Assembly (NCBI GenBank): GCA_903829945.1
Contig: CAIKRV010000088.1
Span: 1 to 53,757 of the forward strand
Reading direction: 5' to 3'
Length of the DNA: 53,757 nt
Origin: an uncultured bacterium
Lineage (GTDB): Bacteria > Bacteroidota > Bacteroidia > CAILMK01
The translations under genes and the position numbers were made by a program. Positions 1,709-17,283 of the stretch are shown here, in pieces (the first letter of the stretch is position 1; each line of letters opens with the position of its first letter). The notes under the pieces are model-generated. The model worked only from the letters and a program-made list of their open reading frames with translations. It had not been told where the DNA came from and ran no database searches.

Positions 1709-2722
1709 TTAAAAACCAGGGCAAGGAATTTTCTTAAACTTCCTTACTTGTTTAGGGCTCATTGGAGGTAATTCAATAATTAAAGATACCTCATGGCTAC
1801 CGGTTGCCGCTGCACGAGCATCGGAAACGGTTAAGTCATAGCTATATCCAATTCTAACGGCATCCTTTTTAACACCAATTAAAACCATTAATGCATCAGA
1901 ATTCGGGCGTGTTTGACGGTACCAAAGACCAGCTACAAAATAATTTTTAATAAAGTATGCCCCGAAATTTACTTGGCGGAAATTCGCCTGTTGTTGGAAC
2001 AAGATATTAGGGGAGATAAAAGTAGAAGGGTCTCTTTTCCAATTATCTACAGTAATAGTCATCCCGGCATTAACGGTATATTTACGAGGAAGGGTACTAT
2101 TCGGGTTACCGAAAAATGATTGAGTAGGCTCAACGATGTGATTTACAGAGAAACCACCATAATATTTATTAGTAAAGGCCAATAAACCTGCAGAGAAATC
2201 AGGGATAAAGTCTGTGGTTTCCACGCCTTTAGGTATTCTTTCTTGGGTTACACGACCCAACCATCCTTTACGAGGGTCAATTTCATCACCAAAGTGAAGC
2301 TTATCAAAATCCAAACTACGTTGGAAAGCTCCGGCTTGTAAACCGGCTTTGATAATAAAGTAATCTCTGGTTGCATCTTTTATTCTAAGATCATAAGAGT
2401 AAACTCCACTGAAAGAAGAAGTTGATAATCTTCCATCCCCGGCCTGATCGTACCAAACCTGAGCACCTATTCCACCGCCAATTCCGTCAAAATGCTGATC
2501 ATAAGAAGCGGCATAAGTAACGAAAGTACCTGAAATACTTGGCCATTGGTCGCGGAAGTTAATACAGAAACGCGGACCGGCAGTAGTTCCGGCAAATGCA
2601 GGATTAGTGTATAGGGGGTTCGCATAAAACTGAGTAAACTCGGGGTCCTGAGCATTAGCTGTGCCTGCAAAAAGCAAACCTAGCGACATAAATAGTAAGA
2701 CTCTCTTCATTGCCTTATTCAT
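1709..2722 (-). CDS. porP: T9SS outer-membrane protein, PorP/SprF family
   Basis: PorP/SprF proteins are outer-membrane beta-barrels that help assemble the T9SS or serve export and anchoring of particular substrates; many genomes hold several copies. The 337-residue product has a signal peptide ending near TANAQ (residues 20-25), then the family's opening DPEFTQFYANPLYTNPAFAGT. It continues with strand-forming repeats rich in Gly, Tyr and Phe, including a GIGGGIGAQVWYD segment, and ends in a short basic tail with CPGF. It precedes the GldJ-like gene on the same strand and is divergent from porU. An in-frame ATG at codon 5 is an equally plausible start. Whether this copy is the core PorP or a substrate-specific paralogue cannot be told from sequence. 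Confidence 0.9.
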   Translation of the reverse strand: MNKAMKRVLLFMSLGLLFAGTANAQDPEFTQFYANPLYTNPAFAGTTAGPRFCINFRDQWPSISGTFVTYAASYDQHFDGIGGGIGAQVWYDQAGDGRLSTSSFSGVYSYDLRIKDATRDYFIIKAGLQAGAFQRSLDFDKLHFGDEIDPRKGWLGRVTQERIPKGVETTDFIPDFSAGLLAFTNKYYGGFSVNHIVEPTQSFFGNPNSTLPRKYTVNAGMTITVDNWKRDPSTFISPNILFQQQANFRQVNFGAYFIKNYFVAGLWYRQTRPNSDALMVLIGVKKDAVRIGYSYDLTVSDARAAATGSHEVSLIIELPPMSPKQVRKFKKIPCPGF

Positions 2723-2790
2723 AAAAATTATTTAAGCAGTTTATAATTTTAATCTTTTCTGTACGTTTAAGAATCCAATTTGTAAAAAAC

Positions 2791-2821
2791 TTGTTTAAAC
2801 TCTTAATCGTAACTAACTTTG
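2791..2821 (+). promoter_or_regulatory. Bacteroidota-type promoter of porU
   Basis: A TTG at 2791-2793 is followed after 20 bp by TAACTTTG at 2814-2821, an exact TAnnTTTG match. Transcription would begin near 2826-2829, leaving a leader of about 25 bases before ATG 2852. Confidence 0.7.
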
Positions 2822-2851
2822 TTTACACTTTCATCAAAACTACACAAATTT

Positions 2852-5800
2852 ATGAAGATATCCACTCGTTTTCTGCTCTTTTTAGCATTAAATCTTACGG
2901 CTATCTCTTGCCTTCATGCTTCCCCTTTCAAGTTCTACAGGGAAATAAACAGGCAAATTAACAAAAATGTGATTAATTCTCAAAAAGAATTTTCAAATTT
3001 TTTAAATGCCTTCCCTGAAAATCCAACGGATCCCGGGAATTCCGCTTCGGGAAATGGAGCTTCTCAGGCCATGAATAAACGTAGTCAGCCGAATAATTCT
3101 GTGATGAATTCAGGCGCTTGGTACAAATTAGGATTGACCAATTCTGGCGTATATTATATTAATTATCAATACTTAAAGTCTTTAGGAATTAATCCTGACC
3201 AGATTGCAAAAAAGTATATACATATATATGGTAAACGTGGTGGAACCCTTTCTGAAATAGCCGGAAGCCCGCGTGACCTCGATTTAACGGAGAACCCAAT
3301 TTTTGTTACAGGCAACGGTTCTGATATGTTCGGATCTTCCGATTATATTCTTTTTTATGGTGAAAGCCCGGTGCAATGGTTATACAGTAGTGGTGATAAT
3401 CATTTTCATCATCAACAAAATGCCTATTCGGATACCACGTATTATTTCTTATGTATTAATGATTCCCAAGGTTTAAGAATTGATAGCCGAACTTCCTCCT
3501 CCAGTTTTGATCGAACAATTACGGCCTACGATGATTTTAGGTTGCATGATGTAGACAATTGGACCGACATTACTAAAAATGTAAAATCAGGTAGGCAATG
3601 GTGGGGTGAGGCTTTTGATAAGGTTCAAAGTCAAACATTTAGCTTTGATTTTCCGGATCGTGATCCTAATAATTGCACCTTGTATATGCGTACCGTTTTT
3701 GCAGCGCGCTCGCTAAACCAAACCAGTTTTGATGTTTATTGCAATAATACAAAGCGATTTAATTACGTTTTAGAAGCTGCCAATTTTGATTTTACTCAAG
3801 ATTATGCTACCCAAGGCAATGGATTAACCTCCACTACTTATTGTGATGGCTCCAATCATTTGGATATAAATATTCAATTTAACATGAATGGCGACTATAA
3901 TGCCTTGGCTTGGTTGGATTTTATAGAGCTCAATGCGCGATGCAAATTATCCTTCCATAATGGGCAATTCGTATTTCGCGATGCCTTAAGTTATGATTCG
4001 GGCCATGTAAATAAATTTAGCATAGCCAATTCAAATAACAATACCTTGGTTTGGGAAGTAACCGATATCCACAATGTACATCTCATTAAAGGGAGTTTAA
4101 ATAATGGTAATTATGAATTTACCGCCGGTTCGGATACCCTCAGAGAATTTGTAACTTTTGATGGTTCTAATTTGCTTATTCCGGTATCCTTTGGAAGTGT
4201 TGGAAATCAAAATTTGCATGGATTGGCACAAGCAGATATGGTTATTATTTCTCACCCTAATTTTATGGCTGCATCGAATAGGATTGCAAATTTCCATAGG
4301 AATAGGGATCATTTTACGGTACACGTAGTTACGCCACAGCAGATTTACAATGAATTTTCTTCCGGCTCTCAGGATGTCACTGCCTTCAGAGATTTTTTAA
4401 AAATGTTTTATGACCGTGCCAAAAACGACCCGAGTCAAAAGCAAATAAAATATGTTTTGCTGATGGGTGCTGCTTCGTATGATCCTAAATATAGAGTGCC
4501 GAATAACACCAATTTTATTCCAATTTACGAAACCAATCAAGACAAAAATTCAGTATCTTTTATCAACTCTTTTTGTTCGGATGATTTTATCGGATTCTTA
4601 GACGATGGTGAAGGTATTTTGCCTACCAGTAATCAAGTGGATGTTGGCATCGGCAGGTTTCCGGTCGTAAGTACCGATGAAGCCAATGCCATGGCAGATA
4701 AAGTTGAAGCATATGTTGATCCTCGTTCTATGAGTGATTGGCGTAATCAATTAAGTTTTGCTGCCGATGATCAGGAATTTAATTTGTTTGAATTATCCAC
4801 TGAAACAACAACAGATTCCATCAAAAGGCAATACCCGATTTTCAATATTGAAAAAATTTATTTGGACGCTTACCAGATGGAAGTAACTACTACCGGTTCG
4901 CGCTATCCTGATGCACAAAAAGCCATAGTGGATCGCGTAAATAAAGGTGCTTTAGTAATGACCTATACGGGACATGGTGGAGAATCAGGATGGGCGAATG
5001 AACGTGTATTGGAAGTAGCGGATATAAATTCATGGAAAAATAAATATGCTATGCCGGTTTTCCTTACGGCTACTTGTGAATTTGGCAGGTATGATGATCC
5101 TACCTTGGTATCAGCGGGACAATTATGTATTTTAAATCCGAATGGTGGAGCCGTAGCTTTATTTACTACGACAAGACTGGCAGAATCTACCGGGAATGAT
5201 GCCTTGACCAGAGGTGTTTATCAAAACAATATTTTCAGTACTCCTAATGGCATGGCACGGAGGTTTGGTGATATTATTGCCACTGCCAAAAATGCAGCAG
5301 GATTCTCTGAAAATACTTGCATTTTTGCTTTGCTGGGTGATCCTGCCTTGCAGATTGCTTTACCTATGGATTCTGTAGTTACTACCCAAATTAATGAACA
5401 TATTGTTGACCCCACACAAAATGACACCTTGCGCGCACTAACCATGGTGACTATTAAGGGATATATTTCTGATCGTTCAGGCAATAAAAGAACAAGCTTC
5501 AATGGGGTTATTTATCCTACGGTATATGATAAAGCACAAACCCTTACAACCTTAGCGAATGTAACAGGGACTGCAAATCCAAGCTATAAAATGAATTTTT
5601 CTGTTCAGAATAATATTATTTTTAAAGGGGCCGCTACGGTTAAAAACGGAGAATTCAGTTTCACTTTTGTCATGCCTAAAGATGTTTCTTTTACAAACTC
5701 CAAGGGAAAGATTTCGTATTATGCTACCAATGGAACTAATGAAGATGCCAGCGGATATTATAACAATATAATTATTGGAGGCAGTTCTGATCATGAAGTA

Positions 5801-6466
5801 AAAGAGGACGGATTAGGGCCGAAAATTCAATTGTATATTAATGATACCACCTTTATATCCGGCGGGATATGTAATGATACTCCGCATTTATTAGCTAAAC
5901 TTTGGGATGACGTAGGAATTAATACGGTTGGTAATGGAATCGGACATGATATAACAGGCGTGCTGAACGGAGGGGATCCTATCGTGATGAATGATTACTA
6001 TCAGTCGGATTTAGATAATTACCATTCGGGTTGGCTGAATTATCCGTTTCAACTTTTACCGACCGGAAAATATACGCTTACTTTAAAAGTTTGGGATGTA
6101 GCAAATAATTCAGCAGAAGCATCGATTGATTTTGAAGTAGTAGATCATTCAGATTTTACTATTGGAAAATTATATAATTTCCCAAATCCATTTTCAGACT
6201 ATACTACTTTCTCCTTTGAACACAATGCAGATCCCAATGAACAATTAGAGGTCACAATTTATATATATAATATTCAAGGACAATTAGTTAAAACAATTTC
6301 TGCCACGCCGGTGAATGGTGGCAGTCACGTTAAAACAGTATTTTGGGATGGAAAAACAGATGCGGGTGCTCCGATGGCCAATGGGATGTATATTTACCGA
6401 ATGAGTGTACAATCCCCTAGCGGTAGTCATCAGGAATTAAATGCGAAGCTGATAATAATTCGTTAA
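2852..6466 (+). CDS. porU: T9SS sortase PorU (C25 gingipain-like peptidase)
   Basis: PorU is the outer-surface sortase of the T9SS. It removes the C-terminal signal of exported proteins and attaches them to the cell surface, working with PorV. The 1204-residue product has a signal peptide (LLFLALNLTAISCLHA) and a long N-terminal beta-rich region. The gingipain-type peptidase domain follows, with catalytic His708 in YTGHGGESGW and Cys742 in TATCEFG. After Ig-like regions it ends in a FlgD/CTD-like module with NFPNPF and NGMYIYRM, as expected because PorU itself carries a T9SS CTD. The start is set at ATG 2852: an upstream in-frame TTG at 2819 lies inside the promoter element, and only the shorter form begins with a proper signal peptide. 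porV follows after 183 bases. Confidence 0.93.
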   Translation: MKISTRFLLFLALNLTAISCLHASPFKFYREINRQINKNVINSQKEFSNFLNAFPENPTDPGNSASGNGASQAMNKRSQPNNSVMNSGAWYKLGLTNSGVYYINYQYLKSLGINPDQIAKKYIHIYGKRGGTLSEIAGSPRDLDLTENPIFVTGNGSDMFGSSDYILFYGESPVQWLYSSGDNHFHHQQNAYSDTTYYFLCINDSQGLRIDSRTSSSSFDRTITAYDDFRLHDVDNWTDITKNVKSGRQWWGEAFDKVQSQTFSFDFPDRDPNNCTLYMRTVFAARSLNQTSFDVYCNNTKRFNYVLEAANFDFTQDYATQGNGLTSTTYCDGSNHLDINIQFNMNGDYNALAWLDFIELNARCKLSFHNGQFVFRDALSYDSGHVNKFSIANSNNNTLVWEVTDIHNVHLIKGSLNNGNYEFTAGSDTLREFVTFDGSNLLIPVSFGSVGNQNLHGLAQADMVIISHPNFMAASNRIANFHRNRDHFTVHVVTPQQIYNEFSSGSQDVTAFRDFLKMFYDRAKNDPSQKQIKYVLLMGAASYDPKYRVPNNTNFIPIYETNQDKNSVSFINSFCSDDFIGFLDDGEGILPTSNQVDVGIGRFPVVSTDEANAMADKVEAYVDPRSMSDWRNQLSFAADDQEFNLFELSTETTTDSIKRQYPIFNIEKIYLDAYQMEVTTTGSRYPDAQKAIVDRVNKGALVMTYTGHGGESGWANERVLEVADINSWKNKYAMPVFLTATCEFGRYDDPTLVSAGQLCILNPNGGAVALFTTTRLAESTGNDALTRGVYQNNIFSTPNGMARRFGDIIATAKNAAGFSENTCIFALLGDPALQIALPMDSVVTTQINEHIVDPTQNDTLRALTMVTIKGYISDRSGNKRTSFNGVIYPTVYDKAQTLTTLANVTGTANPSYKMNFSVQNNIIFKGAATVKNGEFSFTFVMPKDVSFTNSKGKISYYATNGTNEDASGYYNNIIIGGSSDHEVKEDGLGPKIQLYINDTTFISGGICNDTPHLLAKLWDDVGINTVGNGIGHDITGVLNGGDPIVMNDYYQSDLDNYHSGWLNYPFQLLPTGKYTLTLKVWDVANNSAEASIDFEVVDHSDFTIGKLYNFPNPFSDYTTFSFEHNADPNEQLEVTIYIYNIQGQLVKTISATPVNGGSHVKTVFWDGKTDAGAPMANGMYIYRMSVQSPSGSHQELNAKLIIIR

Positions 6467-6543
6467 CACATTAATTGATAAATAATATTTTGATACTTAA
6501 GTAATTAGCTATTATAAGACAAAACAAGGCAATTTCTATGCAT

Positions 6544-6561
6544 TTCTTACGTTTGTAAGAA
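6544..6561. repeat. Small inverted repeat between porU and porV
   Basis: TTCTTAC (6544-6550) and GTAAGAA (6555-6561) form a perfect 7-bp inverted repeat around GTTT. No T-run follows, so it is a poor terminator. It may be a weak hairpin in the porU 3' end or part of the porV control region. Confidence 0.4.
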
Positions 6562-6576
6562 GGCCGACGTTGAAAA

Positions 6577-6601
6577 ACACATATTATTGCAATATATGTG
6601 T
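6577..6601. promoter_or_regulatory. Interrupted 24-nt palindrome upstream of porV (candidate operator)
   Basis: ACACATAT (6577-6584), T6585, ATTGCAAT (6586-6593) and ATATGTGT (6594-6601) make a perfect 24-nt palindrome broken by one inserted T. It lies just upstream of the porV -7 element (6624-6631), where a transcription factor site would be expected. No T-run follows on the plus strand. Confidence 0.45.
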
Positions 6602-6623
6602 AGCTTGCAGCCAATTATTTTTT

Positions 6624-6631
6624 TAGTTTTG
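6624..6631 (+). promoter_or_regulatory. -7 promoter element of porV
   Basis: TAGTTTTG matches TAnnTTTG exactly and lies 18 bases before the porV ATG. A TTG at 6605-6607 is 16 bp upstream, slightly short for a -33 element. It suggests porV can be transcribed independently of porU. Confidence 0.55.
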
Positions 6632-6649
6632 TAATCTATATATGAATAT

Positions 6650-7909
6650 ATGAATCGTTTTTCAAAAATCTTACTTTTGGGTGTACTAACGTTTTACGTT
6701 GGTCAAACAAGTGCACAACTTTCTACCAGTCAATTATTGGGACAGCGAAATGTAATAACCACAGCCGTACCCTTTCTTATGATAACACCGGATGCTGCAT
6801 CCGGCGCCATGGGTGATGTTGGGGTAGCTACTAATCCTGATGAAAATTGCATGCATTGGAATCCTGCTAAATTGGCTTTTATGCCACATGACGGAGGTAT
6901 TTCAGTTTCTTATACGCCGTGGCTGCGTTCTTTGGTTCCTGATATCAGTTTATCCTACCTTTCAGGGTATTATAAAATTGATAAATTATCCGGTTTTGGA
7001 GCATCCTTAAGATATTTCTCTTTAGGTGATATTCAATTTACAGATAATTATGGAAATGATTTGAAACAATACAGACCTTATGAATTTGCCACCGATTTGG
7101 GATATGCAAGAAAATTATCTGATAATTTTTCAATTGGTGTAGCCGGCCGTTTTATTTACTCTGACTTAGCGGGCAAAACTCCTATTGGAAATGGATCATC
7201 TTCCACACAGCCTGCCATTGGTTTTGGCGGAGATATCTCAGGATATTATACCAAAGCGATGAAAGTTTCAGGGTACAATGCCAATCTAGGTTTAGGATTT
7301 GATATTTCTAACCTTGGACCAAAAATAACCTATACCAATGATGCTTCCCGCGATTATATTCCCATTAATATGCGAGTAGGCGGTTATTTTAATTTCCACA
7401 TTGATGATTACAATGAACTTGCTATTGCATTAGACTTAAATAAATTATTAGTACCAACACCTCCGGCATATAAATTGGACCAATATGGTAATCCAATTCT
7501 TGATCCGGTCAGCGGACAACCGGAGCTATCTGCCGGTATGGATCCAAACCGTCCGGTATTGCAAGGTATTTTTACTTCTTTTTATGATGCACCTGGAGGA
7601 TTATCCGAAGAAATTAAAGAAATTAATCCTTCAGTAGGACTTGAATATTGGTACGATAAACAAGTAGCAGGAAGAATGGGTTATTTTTATGAAGCCGTTC
7701 AAAAAGGCGGTCGTCAATATTTAACCTTAGGCGGTGGCGTTCGTTATAATATTCTTACCCTAGATTTTTCTTACTTAATTACCACCAACGGTCAAAATAC
7801 TACGCAACGTAATCCCTTGGATAATACCTTAAGATTTACACTTGCTTTGCACTTCGATAAAAAGAAGAAAAGTGATAAAGAGCCAAACAATAATGGCGGT
7901 GGCAGGTAA
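6650..7909 (+). CDS. porV: T9SS outer-membrane protein PorV (LptO)
   Basis: PorV is a FadL-like 14-strand barrel that binds the C-terminal signal of T9SS substrates and hands them to PorU. The 419-residue product has a signal peptide ending at QTSAQ, then the PorV hallmark TAVPFLMITPDAASGAMGDVGVAT, followed by HWNPAKLAFM. Aromatic and Gly-rich strands run to the end, with a basic, Asn/Gly-rich terminus after FTLALHFDKKKK. An ATG eight bases upstream, at 6642, opens a frame that stops after three codons, so ATG 6650 is the start. It follows porU on the same strand and has its own -7 element and a strong terminator. Confidence 0.95.
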   Translation: MNRFSKILLLGVLTFYVGQTSAQLSTSQLLGQRNVITTAVPFLMITPDAASGAMGDVGVATNPDENCMHWNPAKLAFMPHDGGISVSYTPWLRSLVPDISLSYLSGYYKIDKLSGFGASLRYFSLGDIQFTDNYGNDLKQYRPYEFATDLGYARKLSDNFSIGVAGRFIYSDLAGKTPIGNGSSSTQPAIGFGGDISGYYTKAMKVSGYNANLGLGFDISNLGPKITYTNDASRDYIPINMRVGGYFNFHIDDYNELAIALDLNKLLVPTPPAYKLDQYGNPILDPVSGQPELSAGMDPNRPVLQGIFTSFYDAPGGLSEEIKEINPSVGLEYWYDKQVAGRMGYFYEAVQKGGRQYLTLGGGVRYNILTLDFSYLITTNGQNTTQRNPLDNTLRFTLALHFDKKKKSDKEPNNNGGGR

Positions 7910-12095: not shown

Positions 12096-12677
12096 ATGAC
12101 CAAGAAAACAGTTAGCGATGAAGAGCTCCTTACCGGATATATAAATGGTGAGGAAAACTGCTTAAGAACCCTCATACATAGGCATCAAAGAAGAGTTTTT
12201 ACTTCTATTTATGTATTGGTTAAAGACCGAGCTTTGGCAGAAGATCTTTTTCAGGAAACCTTTATTAAGGTGATTAACAGCCTAAGAAGTGGCCGTTATG
12301 AAGAAAAAGGGAAATTTGCCGCTTGGGTAGTCCAGATCGGAACCAACCTTGTTAGAGATTATTTCCGTAAAATGGAACGTCTTCCAAGGGTAGTTGGATC
12401 AGACGGTGATGAAACTTTTCTAAAATACATCCCACTAGGCGATGAAAACGCCGAACGCAGACTCATTAATGATGAACGTGATGAGATGGTTAAAAATCTT
12501 ATCCAAAAGTTACCTCCTGAACAGAGGGAGGTGTTAGTATTAAGAAATTATGCAAATCTTAGCTTTAAGGAAATAGCGGAACTCACAAACGTGAGTACCA
12601 ATACTGCCTTAGCCAGAATGCGTTATGCACTTAGTAATATGCGTAAACTCATTGAAAAGCATAATATTATATTATAG
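12096..12677 (+). CDS. RNA polymerase sigma factor, ECF type (sigma-70 family)
   Basis: An ECF sigma factor of 193 residues. Region 2 is seen in LIHRHQRRVFTSIY, the DLFQETFIKV core and FAAWVVQIGTNLVRDYFRK. Region 4 is seen in LPPEQREVLVLRNYANLSFKEIAELTNVSTNTALARMRYALSNMR, a helix-turn-helix that reads the -35 box. No FecR-type transmembrane anti-sigma gene or TonB receptor follows; instead an 80-residue protein lies 154 bases downstream. It diverges from uvrA with a 167-base gap in which I found no clear promoter. Its targets are unknown, and the envelope operon at 13410-17212 is a candidate only by proximity. Confidence 0.92.
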   Translation: MTKKTVSDEELLTGYINGEENCLRTLIHRHQRRVFTSIYVLVKDRALAEDLFQETFIKVINSLRSGRYEEKGKFAAWVVQIGTNLVRDYFRKMERLPRVVGSDGDETFLKYIPLGDENAERRLINDERDEMVKNLIQKLPPEQREVLVLRNYANLSFKEIAELTNVSTNTALARMRYALSNMRKLIEKHNIIL

Positions 12678-12831
12678 CATGGCAAAAATAAAATAAAGCC
12701 TTGTAAGGTTTTAGGCCATTTTGCAAAAAAAACTGCTATTGGATATATTATACTTGTTGAATGCGCGTTTATAAAAGTGTAAAAAGACTAAACAATGAAG
12801 TTTACCTTTAAAATTTATAAAGTGCGTGCCT

Positions 12832-13074
12832 ATGCAACAAGTTTACACTGAAGACGACATTATCCGTTATGTTTATAATGAAGTAAGTGCCTCAGAAAAG
12901 GTACTTATCGAGAAAGCAATGGAAAACCAACCTTCCCTATTTCAGGCTTATAACCAATTGTTGGAAATTAAGTCTCGTATGGATGGGGTAGTTTTGAATC
13001 CGAATGCAAGTAGTGTAGAACTCATACTTGAACATTCCATCAAAACCTCATCGCATCTCGAAGCTTCAATTTAA
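12832..13074 (+). CDS. Small cytoplasmic protein after the ECF sigma gene (possible regulatory partner)
   Basis: An 80-residue soluble protein with no signal peptide or membrane segment. The first 50 residues look helical (TEDDIIRYVYNEVSASEKVLIEKAMEN) and the end is polar. This outline resembles the N-terminal helical part of anti-sigma factors, but the His/Cys zinc ligands and a membrane anchor are absent. Similar short proteins commonly follow ECF sigma genes in Chitinophagia, so a role in restraining or tuning the sigma factor is inferred, not shown. ATG 12832 is preferred over an upstream in-frame GTG at 12826. A strong terminator follows the stop, separating it from the LPP20 operon. Confidence 0.7.
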   Translation: MQQVYTEDDIIRYVYNEVSASEKVLIEKAMENQPSLFQAYNQLLEIKSRMDGVVLNPNASSVELILEHSIKTSSHLEASI

Positions 13075-13091: not shown

Positions 13092-13128
13092 AAAGTTGAA
13101 CTCTAAAACTTAGGGTTTAACTTTTTTT
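13092..13128 (+). terminator. Intrinsic terminator after the small sigma-linked gene
   Basis: A 15-bp stem pairs AAAGTTGAACTCTAA (13092-13106) with TTAGGGTTTAACTTT (13110-13124), with two G-T wobbles, around AAC. A run of seven T (13122-13128) follows. It isolates the sigma region from the next operon. Confidence 0.85.
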
Positions 13129-13323
13129 GTGTAAATGCTAAATACTTTAGCTATTTCCAACCTCCCTGAATCTGGGGAGGCTCAATTGTGGTAAAATATC
13201 CCCACATTTCAGGATAAAATTCTTAATTTAAATTTAATTATGGCATAAATCCAAGGCCAGTTCAAATTTTTAAAACATTATATTCCAATATTTTAGCACC
13301 TTTTTAAAAAGGTAAATCAAAAA
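13129..13323. other. Gene-free stretch with two mutually exclusive stem-loops
   Basis: The whole gene-free gap is 13075-13409; this is the part between the terminator and the next promoter. I found no open frame of note. Hairpin A pairs CCTCCC (13161-13166) with GGGAGG (13175-13180). Hairpin B pairs CCTGAA (13165-13170) with TTCAGG (13208-13213) and, after a small internal loop, TGGGG (13173-13177) with CCCCA (13200-13204). They share bases, so only one can form. The rest is AT-rich with nothing recognisable. A small RNA is possible, but so is chance. Confidence 0.3.
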
Positions 13324-13355
13324 TTGGCACGGTAATCGTATAATCGGTAACTTTG
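13324..13355 (+). promoter_or_regulatory. Bacteroidota-type promoter of the LPP20/FlgT-like/DUF4476 operon
   Basis: TTGG at 13324-13327 and TAACTTTG at 13348-13355 are separated by 21 bp counted from the TTG. This is one of the best full promoter matches in the window. Transcription should begin near 13361, giving a leader of about 50 bases. Confidence 0.75.
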
Positions 13356-13367
13356 TAACACTGTTAA

Positions 13368-13409: not shown

Positions 13410-14708
13410 ATGTTAAAACCACTTTTATTTTCAATTGTCATTATTGGAAGCAGTCATTTTTATGGCTTTGCTCAAACCGGTAGCGGAACCATTAGTCCTA
13501 CTGTTCAGAATCCGACCAACCCCGGTTCCCAAAGTGATCCGGTTCCTTTAAAAAAGGTTAAAAAACAGAAAAAATCTAAGAAATCTACAAATCCTTCAGC
13601 TAATGCACCTGCACCAAATGGATTAACTACCCCAAACAATGCCCCTGGAAATGGTGCACAAATGGACCAAGTAAAAACAACTCCGAGCGGAAATGCTGCC
13701 ACCGGTAATCCAAGTAATGCAACTCCTGCATCAGCTGCTTCACCTGCAGGTACAAATTCTCCTGCCGCTGCATCATCCATGACCGATAATACTAATAATA
13801 GTACCACCAACAATAATACTAATCAAGGAACCGGTAATATAGATGATTTGGTAAAAAAATCAAATCCAATAGTTACCAATACCACCAATGGTCAAGTTAA
13901 TTGGACCAATCAATATGTGGAAGCAATTGGAGAAGCTGCCATAGACAATGTACGTTTTACCAATCCGGCCCAAGCTAAGCTCATGGCCAAGCGAGGTGCC
14001 GTAGTGCTTGCACAAAGAAACCTACTTGAAATTGTAAAAGGGGTAAATGTAACGGCTGAAACTACCGTAAAAGATATGATTACATCCAGTGATTATGTTT
14101 ATACCCGTGTGGATGGTGTGGTAAAAGGAGCCGAGATGGTAGGCGAAGCAATAGAAGATAATGGTATTATGCGCGTAAAACTACGTATGCCTTTATATGC
14201 AACCAATGGCCTTGCCTCTGCCATATATGATAATATTCCGGGTACCGGCGGAACCACAAATGGAACTAATTCTGCAGCAGGTACTGCCAGTGGCAACGGA
14301 CAAACTTTAGCCACGAATATTAACAATGCAACCAATACAGCTGCCAATGTATCTAATACTGTCAGCAATGCAGTTTCTGATGCCCAAAAATTGGTAATTA
14401 ACTTAGGAGGGAAAAAGTTTGATCCCAGCTTATTTCCGGTAGTGCTAGATGATAAAGGAAATTTACTTTTAGATTTTAAAAAATTATATGATCCTACCAC
14501 TGGCACCTTCCCGCAAATTATCCAAGCCTCTAAAGAATTAATGAATGATTTTAATTTGAAACAAGGTGTACAAGTCGTCAATGCAATTCAAGATAAATTA
14601 AGTACAGGAAAAATTGTAATCAGCAATGATACCGTTAAGAAAATAAACTGGAGTAAAATTGGAAATACTGCAGCAACCATTGGAAAAATATTAATGATGT
14701 TTATCTGA
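13410..14708 (+). CDS. Exported protein with LPP20-like domain
   Basis: A secreted or periplasmic protein of 432 residues. A signal peptide (residues 1-21, ending FAQ) is followed by a basic patch (Lys 48-58) and a long Asn/Thr/Pro/Ala/Gly linker to about residue 145. Residues about 163-262 resemble the LPP20 family: AKRGAVVLAQRNLLEIVKGVNV, then TTVKDMI, TRVDGVVKGAEMVGE and MRVKLRMPLY. LPP20-like domains occur in Helicobacter Lpp20 and in the flagellar outer-membrane protein FlgP. Unlike those, this protein lacks a lipobox Cys. A second linker (about 280-325) precedes a C-terminal region (328-432) I do not recognise. It is first in a three-gene operon with a FlgT-like gene 28 bases downstream. 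The function is unknown. Confidence 0.8.
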   Translation: MLKPLLFSIVIIGSSHFYGFAQTGSGTISPTVQNPTNPGSQSDPVPLKKVKKQKKSKKSTNPSANAPAPNGLTTPNNAPGNGAQMDQVKTTPSGNAATGNPSNATPASAASPAGTNSPAAASSMTDNTNNSTTNNNTNQGTGNIDDLVKKSNPIVTNTTNGQVNWTNQYVEAIGEAAIDNVRFTNPAQAKLMAKRGAVVLAQRNLLEIVKGVNVTAETTVKDMITSSDYVYTRVDGVVKGAEMVGEAIEDNGIMRVKLRMPLYATNGLASAIYDNIPGTGGTTNGTNSAAGTASGNGQTLATNINNATNTAANVSNTVSNAVSDAQKLVINLGGKKFDPSLFPVVLDDKGNLLLDFKKLYDPTTGTFPQIIQASKELMNDFNLKQGVQVVNAIQDKLSTGKIVISNDTVKKINWSKIGNTAATIGKILMMFI

Positions 14709-14736
14709 TAAAAAGGATTTAGAAAAGCAAAAAACT

Positions 14737-16095
14737 ATGAGATTTTATAAATTTTTATTACTATTAATATTAGTACTTCCATTGGCTTCCAAAGCTCAAG
14801 ATGATATTATGGAAGTAGATGCCAAAGGTACGGGTCTAAAACACGCGGACGCACTTCAAGATGCCTTAAGAAATGCAGTTTCACAAGCTGCGGGTGTGGC
14901 TATACGCTCAGAAACAAAAGTTGAAAATTTTGAAGTGGTATCGGATGCCGTTTCTTCCAATACACAAGGATATATTACTTCCTATACGGAAACTAAATCT
15001 GTCCCATTATCTGATCGTACTGAAGTAACCATTCATGCTAAGGTAAGTTTAAAACCACTTAAAGCAGACATCAATTTAATATCAAAATCCATTGGTGGCG
15101 TTCGTTTTCTAGTGATGTATGATCCCCGGTCTGTAAAAGCTGAAGAGAAACCAAAATATGATTTTGCCATAGAACGTATAAATAATTATTTATCGCAAAA
15201 AAAATATCGGTACATAGAGCAAAGCAGATTTGAATCTTTAAAAAATGAAGCCAGTAATATAGCGGAAGCAGATGCGGATAGCAGCCATCAAATAAGCTAT
15301 GTTCAACGTTTAGGCATTATGAGTGATGCACAATTTATCATTCTAATTTCTAATATTTCCATCAGTAGCAGAAGTGAAGCTTTTGACACTAGAACTTCTT
15401 CAAAAATATCAATTGAGGCCAAAGCTTATGATAATTGTACGGCGGAAGGTTTAGGAACCGTGCTTTTAGAAAGTGGATGGAAAAATGCCGTCGACTTACA
15501 ATCATCTATACAAGATGGTGTAGGTGATGCTGTAAATAATGGATTTGATCAATTATTAGGAACTTTCACTGCTTATATCGGAGGTTGGGTCAATAATGGA
15601 ACACCATTTGAATTACGTTTTTATAATTGCGGTACTTATAGAGATTTTAGAGATTTAAAAAGTAAATTGAAAGATGATAACGATTTTGGTGGTGATTTAG
15701 AAATCGTAAATGCTGAAAATTATACAAAACTAAATTGTACCTTTAGGAAAAAACCGGAAGACTTGGCAGATAAAGTTTTAGATTACTCAGATGCCGTACC
15801 AACGTTTAAGAGCAAAGATTTAGATGTAAAGTTTATTTATGGACGTCAGATTTCATTTGCGCCCCATAATGAAACCATTCCGGGATTACCGGCCACAGCA
15901 ACACAAAACAGCACTACTGCTACACCGAAACAACCAACAGCTACGCCTGCCAATACCTTAACACCGGCAGCCAAGACAAGCCCTGCCCCTGCAGGCGGAA
16001 ACGCACCAATACCTCCTGCCGGCACAAATAAAGCCAATACAAAATATACTCCTTTAAAGAAACCTAAACCAGTTATTAATAAATCAACCAACTAA
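14737..16095 (+). CDS. Exported protein with FlgT-like N-terminal domain
   Basis: A 452-residue protein with a signal peptide (1-20, ending SKA). Residues 22-110 look like the N-terminal domain of FlgT-type proteins: VDAKGTGLKHADALQDALRN, AVSQAAGVAI, then ETKVENFE and TQGYITSYTE. The middle (about 118-225) alternates strands and helices, with YRYIEQSRFESLK and LGIMSDAQFIILIS, reminiscent of CsgG/TolB-type folds. Another alpha/beta segment runs from 285 to 375. The tail (380-452) is a Pro/Thr/Ala linker ending in a basic stretch. It lies between the LPP20-like and DUF4476 genes with short gaps, so it is probably one transcript. In Vibrio, FlgT works with FlgP at the flagellar outer rings; no flagellar gene is visible here, so the role must differ or be ancestral. 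The domain match is from pattern memory. Confidence 0.75.
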   Translation: MRFYKFLLLLILVLPLASKAQDDIMEVDAKGTGLKHADALQDALRNAVSQAAGVAIRSETKVENFEVVSDAVSSNTQGYITSYTETKSVPLSDRTEVTIHAKVSLKPLKADINLISKSIGGVRFLVMYDPRSVKAEEKPKYDFAIERINNYLSQKKYRYIEQSRFESLKNEASNIAEADADSSHQISYVQRLGIMSDAQFIILISNISISSRSEAFDTRTSSKISIEAKAYDNCTAEGLGTVLLESGWKNAVDLQSSIQDGVGDAVNNGFDQLLGTFTAYIGGWVNNGTPFELRFYNCGTYRDFRDLKSKLKDDNDFGGDLEIVNAENYTKLNCTFRKKPEDLADKVLDYSDAVPTFKSKDLDVKFIYGRQISFAPHNETIPGLPATATQNSTTATPKQPTATPANTLTPAAKTSPAPAGGNAPIPPAGTNKANTKYTPLKKPKPVINKSTN

Positions 16096-16114
16096 AACAT
16101 TAACATTATTAAAT

Positions 16115-17212
16115 ATGCAAAAGACGATTTTAACAGTGCTGATATTACTAGGTACCTATATGACCAGTGTAGCACAAAAAACAACTGAAGTAGTTATTTT
16201 CTCAGAAGATGGAGAAAAATTTTATTTAATCCTTGACGGAGAAAAACAAAACGCCACACCGGCAGTGCGTGTAAAAATGCCTGCCTTGGTTAATGAATTT
16301 TACAAAGTAAAAATCATATTTGATGATCAGCAAATTCAATCTATTGATGATAATATCCGCACCAAAGGTTATACTACCACGCAATCGTATGAACAAGCGC
16401 GTCAAATTACCTATGTAATTAAAAATAAGGGAAAAGGCAAAAGAGTATTACGTAGTTCCACTTGGTCATATTATGGAGATAATTCTACTCCTGTAACCAC
16501 CAATGATAATCCGGTTCCGCAAAACACTAATACCACGGCTGCTCCAAATAATAATCCAAATACAGGCACTAATACAACCACCACCACCACTACAAGCGCT
16601 CCGAATGGAACCAATATGAATATGAATATGAATGTTGGTACCAATGGCGTAAGTGTTACCGATCCGGATGGAAATACAGTTAATATGAATGTAAATGTGG
16701 ACCCGAATAACCAGAATGTAAATGTGAATACTAGTGTTAAAAATGCCAACGGGACACCTGCGAAAATGACCACCACTACCACTACCAGTTCTTCTTCTAC
16801 TTATTCTAGTTCCGGTACTAATAATAATCAAAACTATAATAACAATAACAACCAAAACTATAATAATAATGCCCAGGCGCCTGCCAGCAATAATGCAGGT
16901 AATGGGGGAAATAAATGTGTTTTCCCTATGAGTTCTGGGGATTTTGCAACTGCTAAGGCATCGATTACTAAGCAATCATTTGCTGAAGAAAAAATGAAAG
17001 TTGCTAAACAAATTGTAAAAGCAAAATGTGTAAATGCTGCCCAAGTAAAAGAAATAATGGGCTTATTTAGTTTTGAAGAAAACAAACTTGAATTTGCTAA
17101 ATTTGCTTATGATTATACTACCGATAAAGATAATTATTTTACCATCAATGATGCGTTTAGTTTTAGCTCTTCTGTTGATGATTTAAATAGTTATTTGGAT
17201 GGCAAAAAATAA
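16115..17212 (+). CDS. Exported DUF4476 protein with Asn/Thr-rich linker
   Basis: A 365-residue exported protein. The signal peptide is residues 1-20 (ending SVAQ). Residues 21-115 form a beta-rich domain (VVIFSEDGEKFYLILDGEKQN). A low-complexity linker of Asn, Thr, Met and Val (about 120-265) includes NMNMNMNV and NQNYNNNNNQNYNNN. The C-terminal 90 residues (CVFPMSSGDFATAKASITKQSF...) are the helical DUF4476 domain, seen in many Bacteroidota envelope proteins and of unknown function. It follows the FlgT-like gene after 19 bases and ends at a very strong terminator. The shared style of linkers in all three operon proteins suggests they span or decorate the same envelope structure. Confidence 0.85.
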   Translation: MQKTILTVLILLGTYMTSVAQKTTEVVIFSEDGEKFYLILDGEKQNATPAVRVKMPALVNEFYKVKIIFDDQQIQSIDDNIRTKGYTTTQSYEQARQITYVIKNKGKGKRVLRSSTWSYYGDNSTPVTTNDNPVPQNTNTTAAPNNNPNTGTNTTTTTTTSAPNGTNMNMNMNVGTNGVSVTDPDGNTVNMNVNVDPNNQNVNVNTSVKNANGTPAKMTTTTTTSSSSTYSSSGTNNNQNYNNNNNQNYNNNAQAPASNNAGNGGNKCVFPMSSGDFATAKASITKQSFAEEKMKVAKQIVKAKCVNAAQVKEIMGLFSFEENKLEFAKFAYDYTTDKDNYFTINDAFSFSSSVDDLNSYLDGKK

Positions 17213-17231
17213 TTAATTTCATTAAGTCCAT

Positions 17232-17270
17232 AAAAGAGAAGAGCTGCAATAATTGCAGCTCTTCTCTTTT
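17232..17270. terminator. Strong bidirectional terminator between convergent genes
   Basis: A perfect 19-bp inverted repeat (17232-17250 and 17252-17270) with A17251 at the centre, AAAA at one end and TTTT at the other. It lies between the ends of the DUF4476 operon (plus) and the T9SS-exported protein at 17284 (minus) and can serve both. Confidence 0.92.
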
Positions 17271-17283
17271 ATAATTAGGAGAT

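Follow-up and report, generated by a model that had tools for sequence, protein, structure and literature searches.

The window analyzed here, a 53,757-nucleotide (nt) stretch of DNA from an uncultured member of the Bacteroidia, contains three adjacent genes, designated A, B and C, which all lie on the + strand. Gene A (13410..14708) encodes a secreted FlgP/LPP20-like protein of 432 amino acids (aa), gene B (14737..16095) a secreted FlgT-like protein of 452 aa and gene C (16115..17212) a secreted DUF4476 protein of 365 aa. The gaps are 28 nt between A and B and 19 nt between B and C, and each protein has a Sec-type signal peptide at its N-terminus and no lipobox cysteine. A first-pass annotation made from the sequence alone had described three adjacent secreted-protein genes with short gaps and low-complexity linkers, and the coordinates, signal peptides, gap lengths and an entropy scan all agree with this description. 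Our main finding is that A and B are related to the flagellar proteins FlgP and FlgT and form a conserved pair in bacteria in which flagellar marker genes were not detected.

A profile built from nine A proteins (A6) matched FlgP from Campylobacter jejuni (9hmf) with an E-value of 5.4e-13, and the profile of A also matched four further FlgP-type chains of other motors with E-values of 1.1e-9 to 6.8e-6, the Vibrio chain showing the value of 6.8e-6. The SHS2/LPP20-like domain of A, at about residues 155-262 (13872..14195), was evident from this profile match and from the predicted secondary structure; in the model, it is composed of a strand (169-177), a helix (186-210) and two further strands (248-250 and 253-261). 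The insert between the helix and the second strand (residues 211-247; 14040..14150) is the equivalent of the ring-forming β-hairpin of FlgP, and it aligns to 9hmf without gaps, at the sequence level only, over TvkdmitesdiiatrVeGvvkgaevv. FlgP homologues are already known in a broad family, in which ring formation goes with a hairpin insert after the SHS2 helix (PMC12222027). Structural comparison of the A model placed Treponema Tp0624 (5jir, Z-score of 6.0), FlgT (5.8) and Lpp20 (5.2) among the top four rows, with 184 residues of Tp0624 aligned to A residues 159-422; weak rows from the VIA comparison (AcpS and salicylate synthase) were treated as common-fold noise. The FlgP profile and the fold together bear out the LPP20-like core proposed earlier for the first gene, and sequence comparison shows A to be a FlgP homologue with significant similarity in its SHS2 domain.

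The remainder of A consists of a low-complexity linker at about residues 23-150 (13476..13859), which has a predicted local distance difference test (pLDDT) score of about 23-39 over most of its length, and of two C-terminal elements; in the entropy scan, the low-complexity stretch of A spanned residues ~29-160. The C-terminal domain at about residues 327-405 (14388..14624) is conserved in both phyla that carry the pair and was modeled with low confidence. It is followed by an amphipathic helix (residues 414-431; 14649..14702) that is confined to the Bacteroidia members: A proteins from the window and from L003, L028, L030, L031, L032 and L051 had hydrophobic moments of 0.43-0.65, those from the second phylum 0.13-0.21, with P values of 0.006-0.14 against shuffled sequences.

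The A and B proteins could also be ordinary periplasmic or secreted proteins with an SHS2 fold, of the Lpp20, Tip-alpha and HP1454 type, which would bind ligands or act extracellularly and would resemble FlgP and FlgT in fold only. A does match Tip-alpha and HP1454 in addition to Lpp20 (Z-score of 5.2), and low-complexity linkers are common in secreted proteins of Bacteroidota. However, the sequence matches to FlgP, at 5e-13 and with the hairpin included, exceed mere fold likeness, and the pairing of A with a FlgT-like partner is old and fixed; we consider this explanation improbable.

The relationship of the pair to the flagellar proteins is also evident in B. When the B model (pLDDT of 67.9) was compared with 350,542 PDB chains using Foldseek, the two top-ranked chains were both FlgT, with 3w1e in first place (1.6e-8) and 8z5n_0, from the LPHT ring, in second (4.2e-8). 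The template modeling scores (TM-scores) of these FlgT matches were low (0.24-0.30) and the root mean square deviations (rmsd) high, so that the match is one of domain content and order; the low scores probably come from a different placement of the domains and from the disordered tail. The FlgT_N/SHS2 domain of B (residues 24-104; 14806..15048) was identified in the model and by a profile match to FlgP, and it contains a hairpin-type insert at residues 53-78. In particular, the profile of nine B proteins (A5) matched C. jejuni FlgP (9hmf) with an E-value of 4e-8, and the B homologues L008, L081 and L078 exceeded the Pfam cut-off for FlgT_N (3.2e-8, 2.8e-8 and 4.6e-8, respectively). The middle domain (residues 119-287; 15091..15597) has a fold of the PelC/CsgG/TolB-N/LptE type, as does FlgT_M. 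The third domain (residues 288-376; 15598..15864), modeled with alternating α and β elements, lies outside the VIA matches to FlgT, and residues 377-452 form a low-complexity tail. The suggestion that the second gene encodes a FlgT-like N-terminal domain was thereby substantiated, and B is a FlgT homologue over two domains. Pfam and NCBIfam scans of single proteins are weak for both A and B, and the LPP20 and FlgT_N assignments are significant only with family profiles or predicted structures.

In the VIA comparison, the middle domain of B matched PelC with a Z-score of 10.7, CsgG with 9.9 and the FlgT chain 8z5n_0 with 9.8 (residues 108-281), and TolB and LptE were also matched, all with Z-scores of 8-10.7. 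These matches allow for a second explanation, in which the two proteins would be accessory factors in envelope biogenesis, of the LpoB/CsgG/PelC/LptE type; through its middle domain, B would bind either a peptidoglycan synthase or a channel in the outer membrane, and A would be its partner without a FlgP-like ring. In addition, the B protein of L078 reaches the LpoB cut-off, and a CsgG-family gene follows A-B in three genomes of the second phylum that lack FlhA. On the other hand, the two-domain matches of B favor FlgT over PelC, CsgG, TolB and LptE, the ring-associated hairpin insert is conserved in both A and B, and Pfam detected no CsgG-family gene in the genome of the window. Such an accessory role without a ring appears unlikely to us.

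The FlgP-like and FlgT-like genes were found to be maintained as neighbors well beyond the strain of the window. Gene A lies directly upstream of B in 14 of the 15 B-bearing genomes, which belong to two phyla, as had been anticipated for a genuine system; full-length B was found in 7/395 Bacteroidia genomes, six of them with A directly upstream, and in the second phylum, that of L008, B was found in 8 of 28 genomes and A was directly upstream in all eight. Within the Bacteroidia, an intact pair occurs in five families. One scan of genome contigs gave only four loci. In a tree of the SHS2 domains, the A and B proteins were split with support of 100/100 and both phyla were present on each side, which indicates either an ancient pairing or joint transfer of the two genes.

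The second-phylum loci, with their downstream genes, lie at L081 7731-10964, L078 8415-10362 and L008 6001-7967. Genes for FecR-domain proteins were observed near A-B in L008, L078 and L081, and the CsgG-family gene that follows A-B in the FlhA-less genomes (L081, L082 and L083) gives a FlgP-FlgT-CsgG-FecR set; these neighbors point to outer-membrane export or assembly. We also observed a second group of secreted FlgT_N/LPP20-like proteins in Bacteroidia (L033 2294-7671, L035 6350-13860, L034, L036, L037 and L038) that occurs without gene A, is present as three close copies in some genomes, is accompanied by a DUF6175 protein in L035 and forms its own clade (100/99). The proteins of L033-L038 were set aside as a different system.

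Comparison with a sister species (G001, locus L097) revealed which genes form the unit. At the same locus, the sister species has the extracytoplasmic function (ECF) sigma gene, an 82-aa open reading frame (ORF), gene C, one intervening gene and then the downstream gene of the window, with neither A nor B nor any trace of either. A 40-nt block of the promoter region of the window stands before C in this species with 95% identity (BLAST), while the flanking intergenic DNA has diverged. Since the promoter was kept where A and B are missing, the two genes must have been gained or lost together downstream of a promoter that was already in place. The comparison defines A-B as the unit, C as probably a co-transcribed neighbor and the ECF pair as a bystander, and A-B thus behaves as a two-gene cassette. 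A fixed three-gene system was rejected, as G001 has C without A-B and C-like proteins occur in 241 of the 395 Bacteroidia genomes. Of the three-gene operon that had been put forward, the adjacency of the genes stands, but the conserved unit is restricted to A-B, and C stands alone in G001.

Neither FlhA nor FlgI is present in the genome of the window, which is 99.99% complete, and both are also absent from six other Bacteroidia carriers tested; the prediction of a bacterium without flagella is supported for these two genes, and a flagellar function of A-B was rejected on these grounds. In the second phylum, whose genomes have no completeness estimate, FlhA was found in 3/8 A-B carriers; FlgI was found in both of the two FlhA-bearing carriers tested and was absent in all five FlhA-less ones. 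Since the pair recurs in bacteria without detectable flagellar genes, the module probably serves an envelope structure other than the flagellum. These data also bear on whether A-B is the relic of a lost flagellum that was kept by chance. The lack of flagellar genes in the Bacteroidia carriers and the presence of FlhA, and of FlgI where tested, in three second-phylum relatives with A-B are in line with a relic. In contrast, A-B is intact in five Bacteroidia families, is preceded by sigma-54-type sites in three of these families and shows a clean presence or absence between sister species, which together suggest that the cassette is in use, though dispensable, and is not decaying; we regard a relic as highly improbable.

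The conserved promoter block (13319..13358, + strand), the one retained in G001, contains a sigma-54-like -24/-12 element, TTGGCACGGTAATCGTA, overlapping a housekeeping-type promoter. We scored sigma-54 sites against the consensus YTGGCACGrNNNTTGCW with GG-N10-GC spacing (14 positions), and the element at 13324-13340 fits 12/14 positions with GT replacing GC. The housekeeping-type promoter has the form TTG-N21-TAnnTTTG, with TAACTTTG at 13348-13355, and the pattern TTGG-N20-TAACTTTG at 13324-13355 is weak when taken alone; a standard sigma-70 scan performed no better than chance (30 found vs 28.2 expected). The full promoter that had been predicted ahead of the operon is accordingly weak as a pattern, but its 40-nt block is conserved in the sister species.

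Sites of the sigma-54 type were found ahead of the operon in three families. The scores were 14/14 in L003 (before A) and L029 (before B), with both perfect sites 42-43 nt before the start codon, 13/14 in L028 and 12/14 in L030, and no such site was seen in L031, L032 or L051. None of the 157 other upstream regions in those loci scored 12/14 or higher. In the genome of the window, 10/990 upstream regions reach 12/14, so that the site of the window alone is only a 1% event. This genome encodes two NtrC-type response regulators with GAFTGA (L156 8031-9320 and L193 12152-13489), one of which was verified by Pfam, and their intact loops appear to imply a working sigma-54 system. Judging from these motifs, sigma-54 control is likely for the A-B group, and we infer that it may extend to the strain of the window. 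A link between sigma-54 and the control of the bacterial exterior has been described (PMC3162934), and in V. fischeri the flgOP genes require FlrA, a sigma-54 activator (PMC3948606).

The ECF sigma gene (12096-12677) and the downstream 82-aa ORF are conserved together within the genus (window 12096-13074; L097 4060-4921), and the 82-aa protein may be an anti-sigma factor. The pair is followed by a terminator-like stem at 13092-13124. An ECF sigma factor with a small partner is present upstream as first noted, but in other genomes it shows no linkage to A-B, and it appears to be transcribed separately; a role as regulator of the operon was rejected owing to the stem and to the lack of adjacency in L003, L006, L030 and L031.

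The DUF4476 assignment of gene C, already made in the first-pass annotation, is certain (Pfam PF14771, E-value of 1.6e-22, 80 bits vs a cut-off of 22.5), and residues 114-275 of the protein are of low complexity. A gene of this type adjoins B in G024, G103, G067 and G097. C is a probable co-transcribed accessory secreted protein outside the conserved core, and the literature searched yielded no bacterial functional paper on DUF4476. Downstream of C lies an intrinsic terminator (17230..17272, + strand) with a 20-bp stem and a 3-nt loop, whose energy of -30.6 kcal/mol compares with -9.3 +/- 2.4 for shuffled sequences (z of -8.8) and justifies its earlier description as very strong. The proposed setting of the type IX secretion system (T9SS) was recovered as well, since PorU, PorV, a PorP/SprF protein and T9SS sorting tails were found in the window. 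The genes for the PorP/SprF family protein, the PorU sortase and PorV lie close together at 1709-7909, approximately 5.5 kb upstream of gene A, and no linkage of this cluster to A-B was seen in other genomes.

Several observations weigh against reading A and B as a FlgP/FlgT-type ring module under sigma-54. The single-protein Pfam scan gave LPP20 in the A protein of the window at an E-value of 0.12, which is under the cut-off; for the B protein of the window, the scan returned no meaningful match and FlgT_N was not reported, and no FlgT_C match was found by Pfam in B or its homologues. The full-length A model is poor (pLDDT of 45.5), and the hairpin region has low confidence in the models of both proteins. 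A has no lipobox and no cysteine anywhere, and because of this it is not a lipoprotein. The SHS2 fold is also present in dodecin and Tip-alpha, neither of which is an outer-membrane ring. The -12 element of the sigma-54-like site in the window is degenerate, and RpoN was not found by motif in 1.57 of 2.91 Mb (54%) of its genome. The distribution is sparse, with full-length B in so few Bacteroidia genomes, which indicates that the pair is dispensable; two genomes carry A without B, and the A gene of G067 is broken and lies approximately 0.64 Mb away from B. In the single contig of G067, A is apparently broken into two frames (C1:1266701-1267697; L053 6729-7776) far from B-C, and B is still preceded by a perfect sigma-54 site at a distance of 41-42 nt.

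On balance, we lean slightly towards the view that A and B are non-flagellar FlgP/FlgT homologues that form a flagellum-independent ring scaffold close to the outer membrane. Both proteins would be exported by Sec to the periplasm, where A would form a ring or disc beneath the outer membrane, with its SHS2 domain and its hairpin insert mediating the assembly. The C-terminal amphipathic helix could hold A at the membrane and replace the lipid anchor of flagellar FlgP. B, with its FlgT-type SHS2 domain and TolB/CsgG-type middle domain, would dock beside the A ring and link it to a partner other than the flagellar LP-ring. C would be made from the same transcript as an accessory secreted protein, and, in several lineages at least, A-B expression is probably linked to sigma-54. 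Co-transcription, ring formation, contact between A and B, the position at the membrane and the machine served are inferred from the combined features of genes and models.

Like FlgP of the Vibrio H-ring and the Campylobacter basal disc, A is secreted, has an SHS2 domain with a hairpin insert and is encoded beside a FlgT-like gene; unlike FlgP, it lacks a lipobox and contains, besides the SHS2 domain, a long disordered linker, a second domain and an amphipathic helix at the C-terminus, and its host has no detected flagellar genes. B shares with FlgT (Vibrio 3w1e; LPHT ring 8z5n) an SHS2 domain at the N-terminus followed by a TolB/CsgG-type middle domain, a Sec signal and the lack of a lipid, whereas its third domain is α/β and unmatched to FlgT_C, it has a low-complexity tail, and the P-ring protein FlgI is missing from the genome. 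The Vibrio FlgO-FlgP-FlgT set also has adjacent genes and a sigma-54 theme, but here the FlgP-like gene is followed by the FlgT-like gene and the window has DUF4476 in place of a CsgG/FlgO gene; the CsgG-family gene after A-B in three second-phylum loci is reminiscent of FlgO. In the Campylobacter FlgP-FlgQ system, two SHS2-bearing proteins are likewise needed for one disc; however, FlgQ is modeled as a double FlgP (PMC12222027), while B combines one SHS2 domain with a TolB/CsgG-type domain. Tp0624, which gave the best fold match to A, differs in having an OmpA-like domain at its end (PMC5104382); A has no such domain.

We found no description of a FlgP-FlgT-like pair in Bacteroidota, or in bacteria without detectable flagellar genes, in the open-access literature searched, and the conserved pair points to an outer-membrane assembly that this literature does not describe. 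It is an open question how motors acquired their discs (PMC12222027). The roles known for FlgP and FlgT are those of accessories of the flagellar motor, and a conserved pair without detectable flagellar genes indicates that the module can live alone. More tentatively, and with doubts that somewhat outweigh our confidence, Bacteroidota and at least one other phylum may possess a FlgP/FlgT ring machine that is independent of flagella and linked to sigma-54, and the two-gene cassette building it could be gained or lost behind an existing promoter. If this is true, a general ring module of the outer membrane would be older than its flagellar versions, and H-rings and basal discs would be one of its uses.

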